Shown here one piece after another: positions 19,452-27,386 of a stretch of DNA of 52,930 bases. The position numbers and the translations under genes are program-made. Below the pieces are notes generated by a model. It saw only the letters and a program-made list of their open reading frames with translations, made no database searches and had not been told where the DNA came from. How positions within the stretch are numbered: position 1 is the first letter of the stretch; each line of letters starts with the position of its first letter. Source of the stretch: Oscillatoriales cyanobacterium (GTDB taxonomy: Bacteria; Cyanobacteriota; Cyanobacteriia; CACIAM-69d); NCBI GenBank assembly GCA_004292515.1, contig RDXB01000071.1, positions 1 to 52,930 of the forward strand. Reading direction: 5' to 3'.

Positions 19452-19549
19452 AAATGCCCCAATGGTCGTAACAAGGGACTTAAGCCCCTTGTCCCCTACG
19501 ATCTTGTAACGGCGGAATCAGGGTTTTGGGCATTTGATAACACCCCCTA
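19452..19549 (-). repeat. 3'-end repeat family, copy C
   Basis: On the minus strand it begins with the TAG stop of the ABC ATPase gene: TAGGGGGTGTTATCAAATGC, then CCAAAACCCTGATTC, GATCGTAGGGGA, core CAAGGGGCTTAAGTCCCTTG and CATTGGGGCATTTG. It is one of the fullest copies and marks the 3' end of the guanidine cluster. Confidence 0.85.
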
Positions 19550-20314
19550 CGCTCCCACAGCCACCGGTTGACGCAACAGATCGAGAATGGCGTAGCGATA
19601 GTCTTGGAAGGTGCTCGATCGCCGCACAGCCTCATTGCGATCGGCAGGCAAATCGATCACCAACTCCTGACGAATCGTGCCGGGCCGGGCGCTCATCACA
19701 TAAACCCGCTGCGACAGAAAAACCGCCTCTTCCACATCGTGGGTAATCGTCAAAATGGTCGTACCCGTGTTTTGCCACAGGTCGATCAAAAACCCCTGCA
19801 TGGTTTCACGGGTTTGCACGTCCAGCGCCCCAAACGGCTCATCCATTAGCAAAATTTTGGGCTGGGATGCCAAGGCCCGGGCGATCGCCACCCGCTGTTT
19901 CATGCCGCCCGACAATTCGCGAGGCAGCGCCTTGGCAAATTGCGACAGGCCCACCACCCCCATGTAGTAGCACGCCTGCTCAAAACGATCGGCTAGCGAT
20001 GCCCCCTGAAGCTTCAGACCAAAACTGATGTTTTCCTCAACGGTCATCCAGGGATAGAGCGTGTAGCTTTGGAACACCATGCCGCGATCGGCTCCGGGGC
20101 CAATCACCGGTTGACCATCCACCAGCACCTCACCGGCCGTGGGCTGCTCCAACCCCGCCACAATTCGCAGCATGGTGGACTTGCCGGAGCCGGACGCTCC
20201 CACAGCGCAGACTAATTCGCCGGTTTCCACATGCAAATTGATATCTTTGAGCGCCACAATTGTGTTGCCGCGCGCTGAAAATTGCTTGTACAGATGCTTG
20301 ATTTCTAAGTGCAT
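19547..20314 (-). CDS. ABC transporter ATP-binding protein of the guanidine cluster
   Basis: This cytosolic ATPase of the nitrate/sulfonate/taurine (SsuB/TauB-like) importer class is about 255 residues. The Walker A site is GASGSGKST, the signature LSGGMKQRVAIARAL, and Walker B ILLMDEPFGALD followed by ILTITHDVEEAVFLSQRVYVM. The ATG at 20314 gives MHLEIKHLYKQF, the normal first strand. An in-frame GTG at 20341 overlaps the permease stop by 4 bases (GTGA) and is an equally possible coupled start. It is the last gene of the run gdmH-hypA-hypB-binding protein-permease-ATPase. The orthologous order in Synechocystis (sll1077-sll1082) links the importer to guanidine; the substrate is inferred from context, not from the ATPase. 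Confidence 0.9.
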   Translation of the reverse strand: MHLEIKHLYKQFSARGNTIVALKDINLHVETGELVCAVGASGSGKSTMLRIVAGLEQPTAGEVLVDGQPVIGPGADRGMVFQSYTLYPWMTVEENISFGLKLQGASLADRFEQACYYMGVVGLSQFAKALPRELSGGMKQRVAIARALASQPKILLMDEPFGALDVQTRETMQGFLIDLWQNTGTTILTITHDVEEAVFLSQRVYVMSARPGTIRQELVIDLPADRNEAVRRSSTFQDYRYAILDLLRQPVAVGA

Positions 20315-20337
20315 GGGTTGGATGGGGGAGACAACAA

Positions 20338-21198
20338 TCACGCTTTAACAGACCAGCGGCAGGCATAGCGCAGGAGCAGACGAAAGAGGATGTCAATGGT
20401 CAAACCGATCGCCCCAATGATGATCAAGCCAGCAAAGATTTCATCAGTTTTCAAAAAGCGCTGGGCAACGCTAATTCGGCGACCTAGTCCCTCCGTCGCA
20501 GCGACCAACTCAGACACAATTACCAGGTTCCAAGCTGCCGCCATATTGACCCGACAAGTATCAATAATGCCGGGCATAATGTAGGGCAAAATTACCTGTA
20601 ATAAAACTTGCCATCGATTACCCCCGAGGGTGTAGGTAGCCTCGATCATTTCCTTGGGGATAAACTTGACTGAATCCATCACCATCAGGGTGTTGAAAAA
20701 CAATGTCCCGACAAAAACTAGCAAGATTTTGGGTAATTCGCCCAGGCCAAAGTACAAAATCAGTAAGGGAATAAAGGCTGTGGCGGGCATATAGCGCACA
20801 ATGCCCACGATCGGCTCCATTAGCGATCGAATACTGGCAAAAGTTCCCATCAGGGTTCCGAGGGGAATTGCGATCGCAGTTGCTAGGGCAAATCCACCCA
20901 TAATTCGCAACAAACTAGACTGAATATCCACCGGCAGCGCACCGCTCACCCACAGGCGATGAATGGCAGTGACCACTTGGGCCGGTGATGGTAAAAACAG
21001 CGATTTAACCAGTCCACTACTAGCCACGATCGCCCACAAGACCAGGGGCAGGGCGATCGATAAAGCCATCAAAATCCAACTCAATCGTGGGGGCAAATCC
21101 TCCGCAATTTGCCAAAAAACGGAGGGCCGCAACATTCGAGCAGGGCCAGGATTGCGAACTAGCGGTGGGTCGTGGGGAATAAGCACAGGATCAGACAT
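20338..21198 (-). CDS. ABC transporter permease of the guanidine cluster
   Basis: The 286-residue inner-membrane permease belongs to the binding-protein-dependent transport family (BPD_transp_1, SsuC/TauC-like). The first helix is at about 42-62 (ILMALSIALPLVLWAIVASSG), and the ordered helices include GGFALATAIAIPLGTLMGTF and ILLVFVGTLFFNTLMVMD. The cytoplasmic EAA loop is EATYTLGGNRWQVLLQVILPYIMPGI, which docks the ATPase. A binding-protein gene lies 99 bases upstream and the ATPase gene overlaps or abuts its end, so the three make one importer. Nothing in the permease itself reveals the substrate. Confidence 0.92.
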   Translation of the reverse strand: MSDPVLIPHDPPLVRNPGPARMLRPSVFWQIAEDLPPRLSWILMALSIALPLVLWAIVASSGLVKSLFLPSPAQVVTAIHRLWVSGALPVDIQSSLLRIMGGFALATAIAIPLGTLMGTFASIRSLMEPIVGIVRYMPATAFIPLLILYFGLGELPKILLVFVGTLFFNTLMVMDSVKFIPKEMIEATYTLGGNRWQVLLQVILPYIMPGIIDTCRVNMAAAWNLVIVSELVAATEGLGRRISVAQRFLKTDEIFAGLIIIGAIGLTIDILFRLLLRYACRWSVKA

Positions 21199-21297: not shown

Positions 21298-22356
21298 TTA
21301 GGTCGCAGACTTGGTTTGGGCCGCGTAGGCTTTCACAAAGCGATCGTCAAAGAGCTTACTGAGATTGGGTTTAGATTTAGTCAAGCCAGAACTAACCAAG
21401 AATTCTGAGATTTCTTGGGCCGCAAAAACCAAGGATGATCGATCCTTACCCGGTCGAAAGGCCTTTAGATTTTCCTCAACTGTGAAAATCTTAGTGCCAG
21501 CTTCATATTGCTTGTACTCTTCGATGGAAACGCCCGCTCGTTTAGCCATAATGCTATAGGCAGCTTCAGGGTTTTTCTGAATGTAATCGAGCGTGGCAAA
21601 CCAGCTATTCACTAGGGCTTGGACGGCGGCAGGTTTTTCGGTAATTAGCTGACGAGTAACCACTAAATGGTCAGAAATAGCACCGGGAAAGTCCTTGGAA
21701 CTGAAGAGTTCTTTGCTGTCTGGTCGCTCTAGGGCTTTGGTTGTGAAGGGGGCAAATACGCCGACTGCATCCACTTGGCCCGCTGCAAAGGCTGCCGCTG
21801 CTGCACCCGTTTCTAAGGGCTGTAGTTGAATATCGCTAGCTGATAAACCCGCTTTTTTTAGACCCAATAATAAAAGGAAATGATCGACGGTTCCTTCTTC
21901 AACAGCAACGCGCTTGCCTTTCAGATCGGCGATCGACTTGATCTCAGAACTGACGATGATTTTGTCATTACCAGTGGAGTTGTCATTGATCAACACAATT
22001 ACTTGATCAGCACCAGCGGCGATCGAGCTAATCGTGTCATTCAAGGTTTGAGCATTGCCATCCAATTGCCCCACTGTTAAGGCATTAATCGAGTCTAGAT
22101 AGCCATCAAACCACTTGAGATCCACATTGACTTGATTAGCGGCAAAAATCTTGGCATCTTGGGCCACTTGCCAGGGCACCCAACCGGGCCAAACGCTAAA
22201 GCCCATACGCACTACGGGCACGGTGTCACTGGGGGATGAGCCTGTGGTTGAAGTCTCATTATTGTTGGATTGGGATGCACAGCTAATGGTTAGAAATAGG
22301 GCTGCTAAAAAGCATCCTAACCAGCTCAGAAGTTGGCGACGATTGATAGAAATCAT
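21298..22356 (-). CDS. Substrate-binding lipoprotein of the guanidine cluster ABC importer
   Basis: This 352-residue periplasmic binding protein is of the NMT1/SsuA-like class. The signal peptide with lipobox is RRQLLSWLGCFLAALFLTIS followed by Cys26, the predicted lipid-modified residue. The mature part starts with a Ser/Asn/Thr-rich linker, then VVRMGFSVWPGWVPWQVAQD, LDGNAQTLNDTISSIAAGAD, IKSIADLKGKRVAVEEGTVD and VDAVGVFAPFTTKALERPDS, the usual two-lobe pattern. In this superfamily substrates range from sulfonates to nitrate, cyanate and amines. Position downstream of gdmH, hypA and hypB makes guanidine the most likely ligand, although a nickel or urea-like role cannot be excluded. A hairpin upstream (22484-22505) may lower its transcription relative to hypB. 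Confidence 0.88.
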   Translation of the reverse strand: MISINRRQLLSWLGCFLAALFLTISCASQSNNNETSTTGSSPSDTVPVVRMGFSVWPGWVPWQVAQDAKIFAANQVNVDLKWFDGYLDSINALTVGQLDGNAQTLNDTISSIAAGADQVIVLINDNSTGNDKIIVSSEIKSIADLKGKRVAVEEGTVDHFLLLLGLKKAGLSASDIQLQPLETGAAAAAFAAGQVDAVGVFAPFTTKALERPDSKELFSSKDFPGAISDHLVVTRQLITEKPAAVQALVNSWFATLDYIQKNPEAAYSIMAKRAGVSIEEYKQYEAGTKIFTVEENLKAFRPGKDRSSLVFAAQEISEFLVSSGLTKSKPNLSKLFDDRFVKAYAAQTKSAT

Positions 22357-22513: not shown

Positions 22514-23236
22514 CTAGGCGGTGATCAGATCAGGAGTACGATCGCTCGGCTGGTGCGATCGCCCCGTGACCTGGCGCACCCAGTTCAGCCAATCCTCCAG
22601 GCCAGCCCCGGTTTTGGCACTGACCGGAATAATCACCACCTGGGGGTTGATTTGCCGCACATTGGCCACGATTCGATCAAGATCCACTTCCAGATAGGGT
22701 GCAAGATCGGTTTTGGTAATCAGCAGGCAGTTGGCCTCCCGAAACATCACCGGATATTTCAGGGGCTTGTCTTCGCCTTCGGTGACACTCAGCAGGGCAA
22801 CTTTGGCATGTTCGCCCACCTCAAACTCGGCGGGACAAACCAAGTTGCCGACGTTTTCGACCACCACCAAATCCAGCGATCGCGGATCGAGTAGATCCTT
22901 AAGCTGGTGGATGCCCCCGGCTACCATCCGCGCATCCAGGTGACACGATCGCCCCGTGTTGATCGCCACCACCGGCACGCCACATTGCCGCAGCCGATCG
23001 GCATCCAGCTCCGTGGTCATGTCCCCTTCAACCACGGCGATCGCCAGTTCCGATCGCAGGGCGGCCAGAGTTTTTTCCAGCAGGGCAGTTTTGCCCGCGC
23101 CGGGACTGCTCATCAGGTTGAGGCAGGTAATGCCCCACTCATCGAAATGCTCGCGGTTGTGGTCTGCGCCGGCCTGGTTGGCATGGAGCAGGTTCATTTC
23201 TAAGGCAGCGTCAAAGGTTTGGTGCATGGCATCCAC
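22514..23236 (-). CDS. hypB: Nickel-insertion GTPase HypB
   Basis: HypB is a cytosolic GTPase that delivers nickel to metalloenzymes together with HypA. At 240 residues it has the P-loop MSSPGAGKT (about 42-50), [13 protein letters not shown], the metal-site Cys98-His99 pair in [13 protein letters not shown] with Cys134 in [15 protein letters not shown] (174-178) and SAKTG (206-210). There is no N-terminal His-rich stretch, so it lacks a nickel store. No other hydrogenase maturation gene (hypC-F) or hydrogenase subunit is in the window. It sits between hypA and the importer downstream of gdmH, so its client is most likely the guanidine hydrolase. Starts at Met1 or Met4 (23227) are both possible. 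Confidence 0.93.
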
Positions 23237-23461: not shown

Positions 23462-23851
23462 TTAAACCGCCGCCAATTGACCGATCACGGTTTCCTGGGC
23501 CGCGTTTTGGTATTCGATGTGGGAAATTTGCAGCTCGCGACCCGATCGAATGTCCTCCATCGGTGCGCCACAGGTGGGACAGGCGTAGTGCAGTCCCACC
23601 TCGGGGCGATAGTCGCTTTGGCAGGCATGGCAAAAAGCCACCAACGGCACCGACTCGATCGCCAACTCCGCCGCCGCCAAAAATGTCCCCTCCTTGTAAG
23701 CATCAAAGGCAAAGACCAAACCCATCGGCTCCACACAGGTAAAATCCCCCACCCGCAGATGCACCCGCGAAATTTGGGGGCGATCGGGCTGCGATTCCCA
23801 CCAATCCCGCAGGGTCAACACCAGCGATCGAGTCATATCCACTTCATGCAT
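23462..23851 (-). CDS. hypA: Nickel chaperone HypA
   Basis: HypA binds nickel through its N-terminal Met-His-Glu motif and passes it on with HypB. The protein has 129 residues. It starts MHEVDMTRSLVLTL, keeping the nickel-ligand His2, and has the structural zinc site CHAC (Cys74, Cys77) and CPTC (Cys91, Cys94). The middle strand VHLRVGDFTCVEPMGLVFAF is typical. The gene starts 97 bases after gdmH on the same strand. HypA is normally found with [NiFe] hydrogenase or urease genes; here its neighbour is a ureohydrolase, in line with the reported need of cyanobacterial GdmH for these chaperones. The last residues (GQLAAV) are followed by a TAA stop and repeat copy D. Confidence 0.93.
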   Translation of the reverse strand: MHEVDMTRSLVLTLRDWWESQPDRPQISRVHLRVGDFTCVEPMGLVFAFDAYKEGTFLAAAELAIESVPLVAFCHACQSDYRPEVGLHYACPTCGAPMEDIRSGRELQISHIEYQNAAQETVIGQLAAV

Positions 23852-23948: not shown

Positions 23949-25127
23949 CTACGACCAGCCATCCTCAAAAATCTGCGCTTCCTCGTGGATGTAGGACGGC
24001 TTTTCCTGGCGCGGCAACTGGCCCGACAGCACCAAATTCGCCATCGCATCGCAAATCACCCGCGTTGCCATCAGCGAAGTCATGTCGCTGATGTCGTAGG
24101 GCGGCGACACCTCCACGATTTCCAAGCCACAAATCGGAGCCTTCCGAATAATCCGCGACAGCAAATACAGCGCCTCTCGCGGCAACAGACCACCCGGCTC
24201 CGGCCAGCCCGTGCCCGGCACAAAGCCCGCATCAATGCAATCAATGTCGAAGCTGATGTAAACGCAGTCGGTGCCATCAAGGGCCCGTTCCAAGGCAAAA
24301 TCCACCGCTGCATCCAAACCGATTTCCATGATGTCCGTGACGGTCAGGATGTTCGTGGCTCGCTCCCGGCAGACCTTCACCCCTTGGCGCGGCACCTGCC
24401 ACCCCCCAATGCCCAACTGCACCAGGTTCTTGGCGGGGGCGTTTTTGATGTTGGTGGCGTGGAACCAAGGACAGGTGTGCATCCGCTCGTCCAGGTCGGT
24501 CTCTTGGGTATCCACATGGCGATCGAAGTGGATGATGCCGACTTTTTTGTCGCCCAAGTGGCGGCAGACCCCGCGCACCGTGGGATAGCCGATCGAGTGG
24601 TCGCCACCCAAAATGATCGGGAACGCCCCCGACGCAAAAATGTGGGCAATCCCCTTGGAAATTTGGTCGAAGGACTTTTCGTTATTGGCCGGAATCGTGA
24701 AAATGTCGCCCACATCGCAGAGGGTAATCTGCTCGCGCAAATCGATCCCCAGCTCGAAGTTGTAGGGCGTGTACAGGGCCGAAATGCGGCGAATGCCCTG
24801 GGGGCCAAAGCGCGTGCCTGGCCGGTAAGTCGTGCCCGAGTCGTGGGGCACGCCCACGATCGCCACGTCGTAGTTGCCCACCTGGTTCACGTCTTCCAGG
24901 TAGGGCGCTTTCATGAAGGTATTGATCCCGGCGTAGTGGGGCAGTTCCCCGCGCGAGAAGGTGGAAATAGTGCGGTCTTTGATGCTGTCGGCGGCTTCTA
25001 GACCCAGCCGCAGAGCCGCATCGACTTCCTGTTGCCAACCGGTCATCGGGAGTCGAGACTCTAAATCTAGGGCGCGTTTGGCTTCGGACTCACCACCCTG
25101 ATAGTTAGGACGCTCAAAAATACTCAT
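23949..25127 (-). CDS. gdmH: Nickel-dependent guanidine hydrolase (ureohydrolase family)
   Basis: GdmH splits guanidine into urea and ammonium in the cytosol. From the ATG at 25127 the protein has 392 residues, near the 390 of Synechocystis Sll1077. An earlier ATG at 25166 would add 13. All six ureohydrolase metal ligands are visible (numbering from 25127): His177 in LGGDHSIGYP; Asp202, His204 and Asp206 in HFDRHVDTQ; Asp294 and Asp296 in SFDIDCIDA. It departs from agmatinase/arginase at FDRHVD (Ala to Arg) and GTGWPEPGG (Thr to Trp308), and has a long N-terminal region of about 85 residues. The riboswitch upstream, the hypA-hypB chaperones and the importer downstream all support guanidine over agmatine. 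Activity itself is inferred. Confidence 0.9.
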   Translation of the reverse strand: MSIFERPNYQGGESEAKRALDLESRLPMTGWQQEVDAALRLGLEAADSIKDRTISTFSRGELPHYAGINTFMKAPYLEDVNQVGNYDVAIVGVPHDSGTTYRPGTRFGPQGIRRISALYTPYNFELGIDLREQITLCDVGDIFTIPANNEKSFDQISKGIAHIFASGAFPIILGGDHSIGYPTVRGVCRHLGDKKVGIIHFDRHVDTQETDLDERMHTCPWFHATNIKNAPAKNLVQLGIGGWQVPRQGVKVCRERATNILTVTDIMEIGLDAAVDFALERALDGTDCVYISFDIDCIDAGFVPGTGWPEPGGLLPREALYLLSRIIRKAPICGLEIVEVSPPYDISDMTSLMATRVICDAMANLVLSGQLPRQEKPSYIHEEAQIFEDGWS

Positions 25128-25243
25128 TGGCGATGGGGTGTTGGGGTTAGATCGACAACTAGACATCGCTTGGCTGCTTGGTCAGTGGGATTTCCCGGTG
25201 ACTGATGCACGATTGCCACTAATTGCCTGAACATCCGAACAGC

Positions 25244-25298
25244 AAAGCCCGGGGGGTTCTAGGCAACCTTGCGATTAGCCTTAGACCTCCCGGGCTTT
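25244..25298 (-). terminator. Riboswitch expression-platform hairpin
   Basis: On the minus strand AAAGCCCGGGAGG, shared with the aptamer's 3' part, can pair with CCCCCCGGGCTTT; GGTCTAAGGC and GCCTAGAACC extend the stem imperfectly. The sequence after it (GCTGTTCGG) lacks a good T-run, so the mechanism may be termination or another switch. Mutual exclusion with the aptamer's last helix is visible. Confidence 0.7.
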
Positions 25299-25446
25299 TA
25301 TCCCGCCGTGTGACTGACAAGCCATATCCAGTGTCGATGGGTCTGGGGAGCTATGCTGTCAGTTCGCTTCTCTCGGACCAGACACAATCCCTAATCCTTA
25401 CAAGAAATTTTGAGAAGGGTTAGATGGATTGTCGGAACCCTAGAAG
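25244..25446 (-). promoter_or_regulatory. Guanidine-I (ykkC) riboswitch controlling gdmH
   Basis: On the minus strand the three conserved blocks of the ykkC/guanidine-I aptamer occur in order: CTAGGGTTCCG (about 25443-25433), TGGTCCGAGAGA (25380-25369) and ACACGGCGGGATAAAAGCCC followed by GGGAGG (25311-25286). The variable stem between the first two is long, ATCCATC... with GGATTG.... The 3' strand of the aptamer merges into a hairpin reaching 25244, the likely expression platform. The gdmH ATG lies about 115 bases beyond the hairpin. Guanidine binding should relieve termination. The class is established for guanidine export and breakdown genes. Confidence 0.95.
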
Positions 25447-25473
25447 CTTTCAATTTTTATTGAATTGGAGCAT

Positions 25474-25516
25474 AGACTATCGATAAATGAATAACAAATT
25501 TGTATCTCTTACTACA
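25474..25516 (-). promoter_or_regulatory. NtcA-activated-type promoter of the guanidine cluster
   Basis: The minus strand has TGTA-N8-TACA (TGTAGTAAGAGATACA, 25516-25501), the full NtcA consensus, then exactly 22 bases and a TAN3T -10 box TAGTCT (25479-25474). This is the classical spacing of NtcA-activated promoters, with transcription expected near 25467, some 20 bases before the riboswitch. An overlapping sigma-70-like pair TTGTTA-N17-TATGCT is also present. NtcA is the global nitrogen regulator of cyanobacteria, activated by 2-oxoglutarate under nitrogen limitation. Confidence 0.85.
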
Positions 25517-25640: not shown

Positions 25641-27386
25641 TCAAGTGGTGCCAGAAAACCAGCGATCGAGCATCTGTTCAAAGTCTCTAGGCTGAATGAA
25701 CAGATCCTGATAAAACCCCATGGATTGGCTGAGACTTTTGATGAGGGGATCGTCACTGAGCGCCACCGAATCTCCGATTAAATAGCCATAATCAAACCCC
25801 AGTTGTCTACTCAGCCGCCAATAGAAATGGCTGACATAGCTGGGGGCAAAGCATTCTAGAATTCGCGTTCCTGCTGCACAAAAGAGTGTATTGGTAAAAG
25901 CCGCGCCGTGGGGCCCCAACACCCATTGGGCCTCGGAAAACAGCATCACTTGCTCAGTAAAAGATAGCCCCTCGGGTACGGTTTCAAAGCCCCAACGATC
26001 AAGCAACGGTTGCAACTCAGCTTCGTTCACGATTCGGCGGCTTTGCGATCGCGACAGGTAGAGCCGTCGCCAGGGCCGGGTGGGCGGTTGGGGCAAGAGT
26101 CGATCGCGCAGGTTTTGCAGACTCGATCGGCAGCCTTCAATCAAGCTGGCAGTGTTAAACACCCAGAGTCGATCGGCTTGGAGGTGGGGCAATTGCTCAC
26201 TGGTTAAACAGCGATCGGGCGCAATTCCAAGGGCGGTCAAGCTGTTGGTTTGAAACGGCAGCGATCGCCCATCAAAGTACCAATAATCGATCGCCTGGCC
26301 CGTTTGGTTGCAGTAGTCCAGCAACTCCACCACCTGCGGCAAAAATTCCACCACCCAGTGGAAATAGTTAGCCGTATGTTGCTTGGCAATCACCGCCACA
26401 TTACCCGCGATCGGCGTGGGCGATGGTAGGCGATCGGAGGTGGCAATCAGCCGATCGACCCCAATCCCCAAGCCCTCAACCACTGCGCCGGCCCGGTTCC
26501 AAATCACCCGGTTATAGGTGTCCACCCAGGCCCGCCCCTGTTCGATCGCCACCAGTTGGCGTGGCGGTTCGCAGAGGGGACTCAACACCGGAAATGCTCC
26601 CAAGGGGCGATCGGGCAGGATCGATCGCGCGGCTGGCAATTCATAAGGCTCGGGGCGGGGTGGTTCCCAGGCGATCGCCACCCCTGCGGCCGGGTCGGTT
26701 GCCAATGGGAGGGTGGCGATCGGTTCTGCCGGGGGCACAAACTCCGCCACCAGTTCCGGCGGAATCAACCGACAAAAGCAATCCCGCGCTTGGTCGGGCC
26801 GCCCCAACCCGTTCAGGGCATCGAACAGCAGGTTATAGGGTGCATCATCGGCCGGGGCAATGTGTAGCGATCGCAAGCACCAGCCCACCGCCGCCGACCA
26901 ATCGCCCTGGCGCATCAACTGCCGCACCGAAGGAACCAACGCCGCCACCAAGGCCCGATCGATTTGGCCAGCGGCCGATCGCCGATCGCGCCGTCGCAAC
27001 CAGCGGCTCAAATCCTCCAGGGTTTGCAGGGACATGGTAGCCGGGTCGAGCTGGGCCACCTGCAAAAACTGCTCGATCGCCTCGTCCGGTTCCCCCAACT
27101 GCCAGAGCAATTGCCCCAACTCCCAGCGGGCCAAGGCTTCCGCCCTGGCCCCACCGGCCAACCCCGTGGCGATCGCCCGTTCCCAGGATCGCCGCGCCGC
27201 CGCCAACCGCCCCGCCACTTGCAACGACTGGGCCAGGGAAGCGTAGGCCACGGCCGACTGGGGCTCCAGCAGAATCGCCGATCGATCCGAGGCGATCGCC
27301 CCCGCACGATCACCCTGATCACGACAAGCGGCCGCTCGATCGAGCAGCCGCTTTACCTCTAACCGGGCGATCGCCGGATCAGCCAT
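25641..27386 (-). CDS. TPR-repeat protein with GT61-family glycosyltransferase domain
   Basis: The 581-residue protein has N-terminal TPR helices (about 1-215; AACRDQGDRAGAIASDRSAI, ALARWELGQLLWQLGEPDEA, DAPYNLLFDALNGLGRPDQA). A GT61 (DUF563) domain follows from about 290. Hallmarks are KQHTANYFHWVVEFLPQVVE, RLYLSRSQSRRIVNEAEL, GFETVPEGLSFTEQVMLFSE and WVLGPHGAAFTNTLFCAAGT. GT61 enzymes (xylosyl- or N-acetylglucosaminyl-type in eukaryotes) act on polysaccharides or glycoproteins; bacterial members are poorly studied and the sugar is unknown. No signal peptide is seen. It starts 21 bases after ccsA on the same strand and may be co-transcribed with it. Confidence 0.82.
   Translation of the reverse strand: MADPAIARLEVKRLLDRAAACRDQGDRAGAIASDRSAILLEPQSAVAYASLAQSLQVAGRLAAARRSWERAIATGLAGGARAEALARWELGQLLWQLGEPDEAIEQFLQVAQLDPATMSLQTLEDLSRWLRRRDRRSAAGQIDRALVAALVPSVRQLMRQGDWSAAVGWCLRSLHIAPADDAPYNLLFDALNGLGRPDQARDCFCRLIPPELVAEFVPPAEPIATLPLATDPAAGVAIAWEPPRPEPYELPAARSILPDRPLGAFPVLSPLCEPPRQLVAIEQGRAWVDTYNRVIWNRAGAVVEGLGIGVDRLIATSDRLPSPTPIAGNVAVIAKQHTANYFHWVVEFLPQVVELLDYCNQTGQAIDYWYFDGRSLPFQTNSLTALGIAPDRCLTSEQLPHLQADRLWVFNTASLIEGCRSSLQNLRDRLLPQPPTRPWRRLYLSRSQSRRIVNEAELQPLLDRWGFETVPEGLSFTEQVMLFSEAQWVLGPHGAAFTNTLFCAAGTRILECFAPSYVSHFYWRLSRQLGFDYGYLIGDSVALSDDPLIKSLSQSMGFYQDLFIQPRDFEQMLDRWFSGTT

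Follow-up and report, generated by a model that had tools for sequence, protein, structure and literature searches.

The Klebsiella nasF operon is transcribed from an Ntr-activated promoter and is further controlled by a nitrate-responsive NasR antitermination leader. As at the gdmH locus described here, an activator for nitrogen limitation acts at the promoter and the substrate is sensed in the leader via control of a terminator; unlike gdmH, however, nasF employs sigma-54/NtrC and an antiterminator protein rather than NtcA and a riboswitch. Canonical NtcA-activated class II promoters of cyanobacteria carry GTAN8TAC near position -41.5 and a TAN3T -10 box without a -35 box (PMC3898017). The NtcA promoters of glnA, urtA and nirA (PMC3898017) share this site, the -10 box and a nitrogen-scavenging role with gdmH, but only the gdmH transcript next traverses a ligand-sensing riboswitch. 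NtcA control at the promoter and an ON riboswitch, in that case for glutamine, are likewise joined in the leader of gifB (IF17) in Synechocystis (PMC6316151). There, NtcA represses and both inputs report nitrogen excess, whereas at gdmH the site occupies an activator position and the two inputs, nitrogen need and substrate, are independent. The riboswitch of Synechocystis gdmH/sll1077 (PMC8390497, PMC12186494) is of the same aptamer class as the one analysed here, with the same operon order and the same inferred ON logic; the literature searched describes this riboswitch without an NtcA site before sll1077.

The locus lies on contig RDXB01000071.1 of an Oscillatoriales cyanobacterium, of which a stretch of 52,930 nucleotides was analysed as a whole (the window). 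Its GdmH protein is closest to the Synechocystis guanidinase and is 97% identical to the Limnothrix protein and 83-90% identical to those of other cyanobacteria; judged by this protein, the source organism is closely related to Limnothrix. Nickel chaperones and an ABC importer are encoded in the same operon, which extends 3′ of the riboswitch from 25166 to 19547 in the order gdmH-hypA-hypB-ABC transporter (Table 1). The same gene order is given for Synechocystis sll1077-sll1082 in PMC8390497, PMC12186494 and PMC10094980.

Table 1. Features assigned to the gdmH promoter, leader and operon, in window coordinates.
Feature	Positions	Strand	Basis
NtcA-type predicted binding site, TGTA-GTAAGAGA-TACA	25501-25516	-	Sequence; core GTAN8TAC at 25502-25515
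-10 box TAGTCT (TAN3T)	25474-25479	-	Sequence; exactly 22 nt 3′ of the NtcA-type site
Predicted transcription start	25466-25467	-	-10 box and class II geometry
Guanidine-I (ykkC) riboswitch aptamer	25285-25454	-	Rfam RF00442, model 1-107, full length
Expression platform, terminator-like hairpin	25244-25298	-	Fold; overlaps aptamer 3′ end at 25285-25298
gdmH, Ni-dependent guanidine hydrolase (guanidinase)	23949-25166	-	Best solved homologue 7esr/7oi1, 774 bits over 376 aa
hypA-type nickel metallochaperone (GhaA equivalent)	23462-23851	-	TIGR00100, above cut-off
hypB-type nickel GTPase (GhaB equivalent)	22514-23236	-	TIGR00073, above cut-off
Guanidine ABC importer, substrate-binding protein	21298-22356	-	TIGR01728, SsuA family; operon position as sll1080
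Guanidine ABC importer, permease	20338-21198	-	ABC permease families; operon position as sll1081
Guanidine ABC importer, ATPase	19547-20341	-	ABC ATPase families, TauB/NtrD-like; operon position as sll1082

The RF00442 covariance model recognises the aptamer with 79.1 bits (E = 1.7e-12; gathering cut-off 63). Its structure was taken from the Rfam alignment and not from a minimum-free-energy fold, which, for the isolated aptamer, did not reproduce the fold of the covariance model. An earlier, sequence-only reading of this DNA had placed the aptamer about 20 bases beyond the -10 box. The aptamer is confirmed, and its distance is corrected: the model begins 13 nt, and helix P1 ~19 nt, 3′ of the predicted transcription start. 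A small hairpin, UUCAAU-AAAA-AUUGAA, occupies 25449-25464 of the minus strand, where the leader is predicted to begin, directly before P1. At the other end of the aptamer, the terminator-like hairpin (25298-25244) reuses the aptamer 3′ strand GCCCGGGAG (25298-25285), so that platform and aptamer exclude each other, and the stretch 25310-25230 that contains it folds with -38.9 kcal/mol (z = -4.27). The competing hairpin of the earlier reading thus exists and overlaps the aptamer; as a terminator it is less clear-cut, with a weak U-tract after the stem (UUUGCUGUU, 25246-25238) and no match to the hairpin in a strict terminator scan, owing to the bulged stem and the weak U-tract. Many orthologues have such a hairpin in this position and, directly behind its CCCGGGC-type arm, a longer T run. 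Since, in addition, the gdmH start codon (25166) lies ~75 nt past the hairpin, termination is the favoured reading.

Upstream of the aptamer, the minus strand reads TGTAGTAAGAGATACA from 25516 to 25501, an exact palindrome with TGTA and TACA ends. With a weight matrix built from other loci it scores 15.7, compared with a background 95th percentile of 5.8. The TGTA-N8-TACA motif, 22-base spacer and TAN3T -10 box that had been claimed for this strand are all present between 25516 and 25474, and the site is centred at -41.5 if transcription starts 7 nt past the -10 box (~25467). A promoter scan gave no acceptable sigma-70 -35/-10 pair overlapping TAGTCT; its sole promoter-like match on the minus strand, at 25586-25558, lies away from the gdmH -10 box.

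We consider it very probable that a class II NtcA-activated promoter and, behind it, a guanidine-ON riboswitch govern the operon together as a graded AND gate. NtcA binding, start site, termination and gate logic are what we infer, as follows. At high 2-oxoglutarate, that is, under nitrogen shortage, NtcA would bind its site at -41.5 and recruit RNA polymerase to a promoter that has the TAN3T -10 box and no -35 box. Without guanidine, the terminator-like hairpin would take the aptamer 3′ strand and transcription would stop; with guanidine, the aptamer would keep this strand and the polymerase would continue into gdmH-hypA-hypB-ABC. Full output would be reached only when nitrogen is needed and guanidine is present. 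As importer and hydrolase belong to one operon, shutting off both under ammonium would not necessarily confront the cell with imported guanidine.

A graded AND is safer than the strict need of full-length mRNA for both inputs that had been claimed, because NtcA retains some activity on nitrate and because Sll1077 protein rises ~20-fold in guanidine-producing Synechocystis with no mention of deliberate nitrogen starvation in the passages covered (PMC8390497); the serial architecture behind the claim is supported. The Sll1077 rise would also fit an arrangement in which NtcA activates the promoter, but NtcA-independent activity or upstream read-through lets guanidine decide, and nitrogen merely sets the volume. 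Detoxification would favour a response whatever the nitrogen state, and an upstream gene on the same strand (25641-27386) is separated from gdmH by a gap of 474 nt. We regard this arrangement as possible but rather unlikely: the promoter has no -35 box, site and spacing are strongly constrained, and excess ammonium lowers the whole sll1077-sll1082 operon in Synechocystis (PMC10094980). This ammonium repression has been reported to require the protease Slr1821 (PMC10094980), which leaves room for further regulators. Expression of sll1082, furthermore, rises on nitrogen deprivation (PMC12638213). That paper labels the gene nrtD (nitrate transporter); because sll1082 encodes the ATPase of the guanidine operon, the increase bears on guanidine rather than nitrate uptake. 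The published Synechocystis expression data agree with activation by NtcA.

The same data speak against NtcA acting as a repressor at gdmH. NtcA sites at -30.5 and -7.5 do repress gifA and gifB (PMC6316151), but the gdmH site at -41.5 is in an activator position (PMC3898017), and the Synechocystis operon genes go down with ammonium and up on nitrogen deprivation. On site position and expression data, repression was rejected as very unlikely.

By itself, the GTAN8TAC core proves nothing, because the window contains two copies where 1.61 are expected, which is not beyond chance, and the 3.98-Mb genome contains 155. These counts would suit a chance match, with a constitutive or other promoter and regulation by the riboswitch only. 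The probability of a core in any given 150 bp is p ~0.006, the -10 geometry not yet being demanded; within this genome, the position before the aptamer and the spacing to the -10 box are suggestive. The decisive support for an NtcA site is comparative, across loci. For this comparison, 80 gdmH loci, together with the guanidine-I loci from a phylum sample of 386 genomes, were oriented by the aptamer and cleared of near-duplicates, which left 103 loci. In 71 of these, an exact GTAN8TAC lies in the 200 bp preceding the aptamer, whereas each control spacing of the half-sites (N3-N7, N9-N14) is found in only 1-7. Dinucleotide shuffles yield a mean of 2.7 sites (maximum 9), and a far control region has an exact site in 3 of 100. 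When the site is relaxed to GTA-N8-[TCG]AC or GT[AG]-N8-TAC, 91 of the 103 loci contain it, compared with 9-15 for neighbouring spacings, and ~12 are without even this form. The CAC variants fall under GTN10AC, reported to be the best-conserved portion of the larger collection of NtcA-bound sequences in Anabaena (PMC3898017).

The -10 box is conserved in register with the site. A relaxed site is combined with an A...T -10 box at a spacer of 21-24 in 65 loci, as opposed to 1-8 for other spacings. The spacer distribution peaks sharply at 22, where 24 of the 71 exact-site loci have an exact TAN3T. The alignment of gdmH orthologue upstream regions, suggested earlier as a check, thus bears out the site. 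Aligned on it, the loci display T-rich flanks, C/T at position 5 and GATAC followed by A/T, which are known NtcA preferences, and, at spacer 22, a TTGnTAnnnT -10 box. Slightly more than half of the exact sites are located 44-80 nt ahead of where the aptamer model begins and most others within ~125 nt; the former distance would place the transcript start at or just before the aptamer. Compared with the nearest relatives of the window (L164, L179 and L032), the promoter flanks have diverged, while GTAGT...GATAC and the TAG within the -10 box have stayed the same. A chance match was rejected on the control spacings. Conservation of the -10 spacing, absence of the site where NtcA is absent, and the failure to find a good sigma-70 promoter overlapping the gdmH -10 box make it highly improbable as well.

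Exact sites were found in 18 of the 19 families sampled. The nineteenth (f19) is picocyanobacteria-like, with small genomes of 2.3-3.7 Mb, and has GTA-N8-[C/G]AC at -47 to -51 in all 13 loci (L131, L132, L140, L141, L142, L148, L161, L168, L170, L008, L015, L017 and L022). Among them, GTA, AC and the A and T of the -10 box do not vary, nor does the spacing between site and aptamer P1 (GCGG), while the remaining flanks average 36% identity. The register of these loci is GTA-N8-[C/G]AC, N22, xAnnnT, aptamer GCGG, and the RNA is predicted to start at the first base of P1. No terminator-like hairpin was found between aptamer and start codon in this family; its riboswitch probably acts translationally or through another platform. 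Synechocystis-like genomes (genus g7) carry GTA-N8-[T/C]AC; each of the four riboswitch carriers among them has TAGGGT as its -10 box, at spacer 22. In a family of another class (f31), a profile search found a real NtcA in no genome, with at most weak matches (E > 1e-7). Guanidine-I riboswitches are numerous there, yet the site is present in only 2 of 23 loci. The presence of the site thus depends on NtcA across lineages.

The genome under study encodes its own NtcA (TIGR03697, E = 2e-115, 384 bits, above cut-off), with a GTAN8TAC ~334 bp upstream of the matched domain, and its glnA and urtA promoters read GTAN8TAC-N22-TAGGAT, the same layout as gdmH. At E ≤ 0.001 the NtcA model has five matches in this genome, which reflect paralogous CRP-family proteins, but it is very unlikely that one of these uses the gdmH site in place of NtcA, since motif and -10 geometry are those of glnA and urtA here, both of them classical NtcA targets, and since the CRP-type motif, TGTGA-N6-TCACA, is a different one. 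The NtcA-type promoter that the sequence-only reading had put before the guanidine-I riboswitch is upheld by its recurrence in 18-19 families, the layout of glnA and urtA, its near-absence from relatives devoid of NtcA and the expression data from Synechocystis. On the same grounds, the serial arrangement of NtcA site and riboswitch is strongly supported.

Some gdmH loci depart from this arrangement. The aptamer motif search gave no match in 16; some of these have a variant or masked core, and ~8 appear to be without an aptamer. No guanidine-I aptamer is recognisable within 700 bp upstream of gdmH in L043, L068, L069, L080, L083, L085, L096 and L097. NtcA-type sites are still present in L043 and L069, and in L085 gdmH appears 3′ of an ABC ATPase gene, a different gene order. 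Guanidine-I riboswitches also precede other cyanobacterial operons, comprising a DUF1989/biotin-carboxylase cluster, an SsuA-type ABC transporter and a sodium-solute symporter. Exact NtcA-type sites accompany 8 of 16 of these (L128, L145, L147, L153, L162, L182, L184 and L186), at a more variable distance.

Each part of the system is already known, and the phylum-wide pairing of NtcA with guanidine-I is without description in the literature searched. NtcA at gdmH is not reported there either, though the operon may have been listed earlier as an NtcA target. We see about equal grounds for and against the broader view that NtcA and guanidine-I in series constitute an ancestral, near-universal and not yet described gdmH module of cyanobacteria, held in register (with the start predicted at the first aptamer helix in the picocyanobacteria-like family) and shared by guanidine carboxylase and transporter operons. 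The comparative result turns a remark on one genome into a phylum-wide regulatory rule. The guanidine-I riboswitch can be transferred to a constitutive promoter (PMC13226834), and the two-input gate could be used in guanidine-inducible expression tools, to which the native promoter would bring a dependence on nitrogen, and would be useful for engineered guanidine producers. For the organism, these results would tie guanidine use to the global nitrogen regulon. Since cells with ample ammonium seem to hold back both importer and hydrolase, guanidine would be a scavenged nitrogen source and not merely a toxin.
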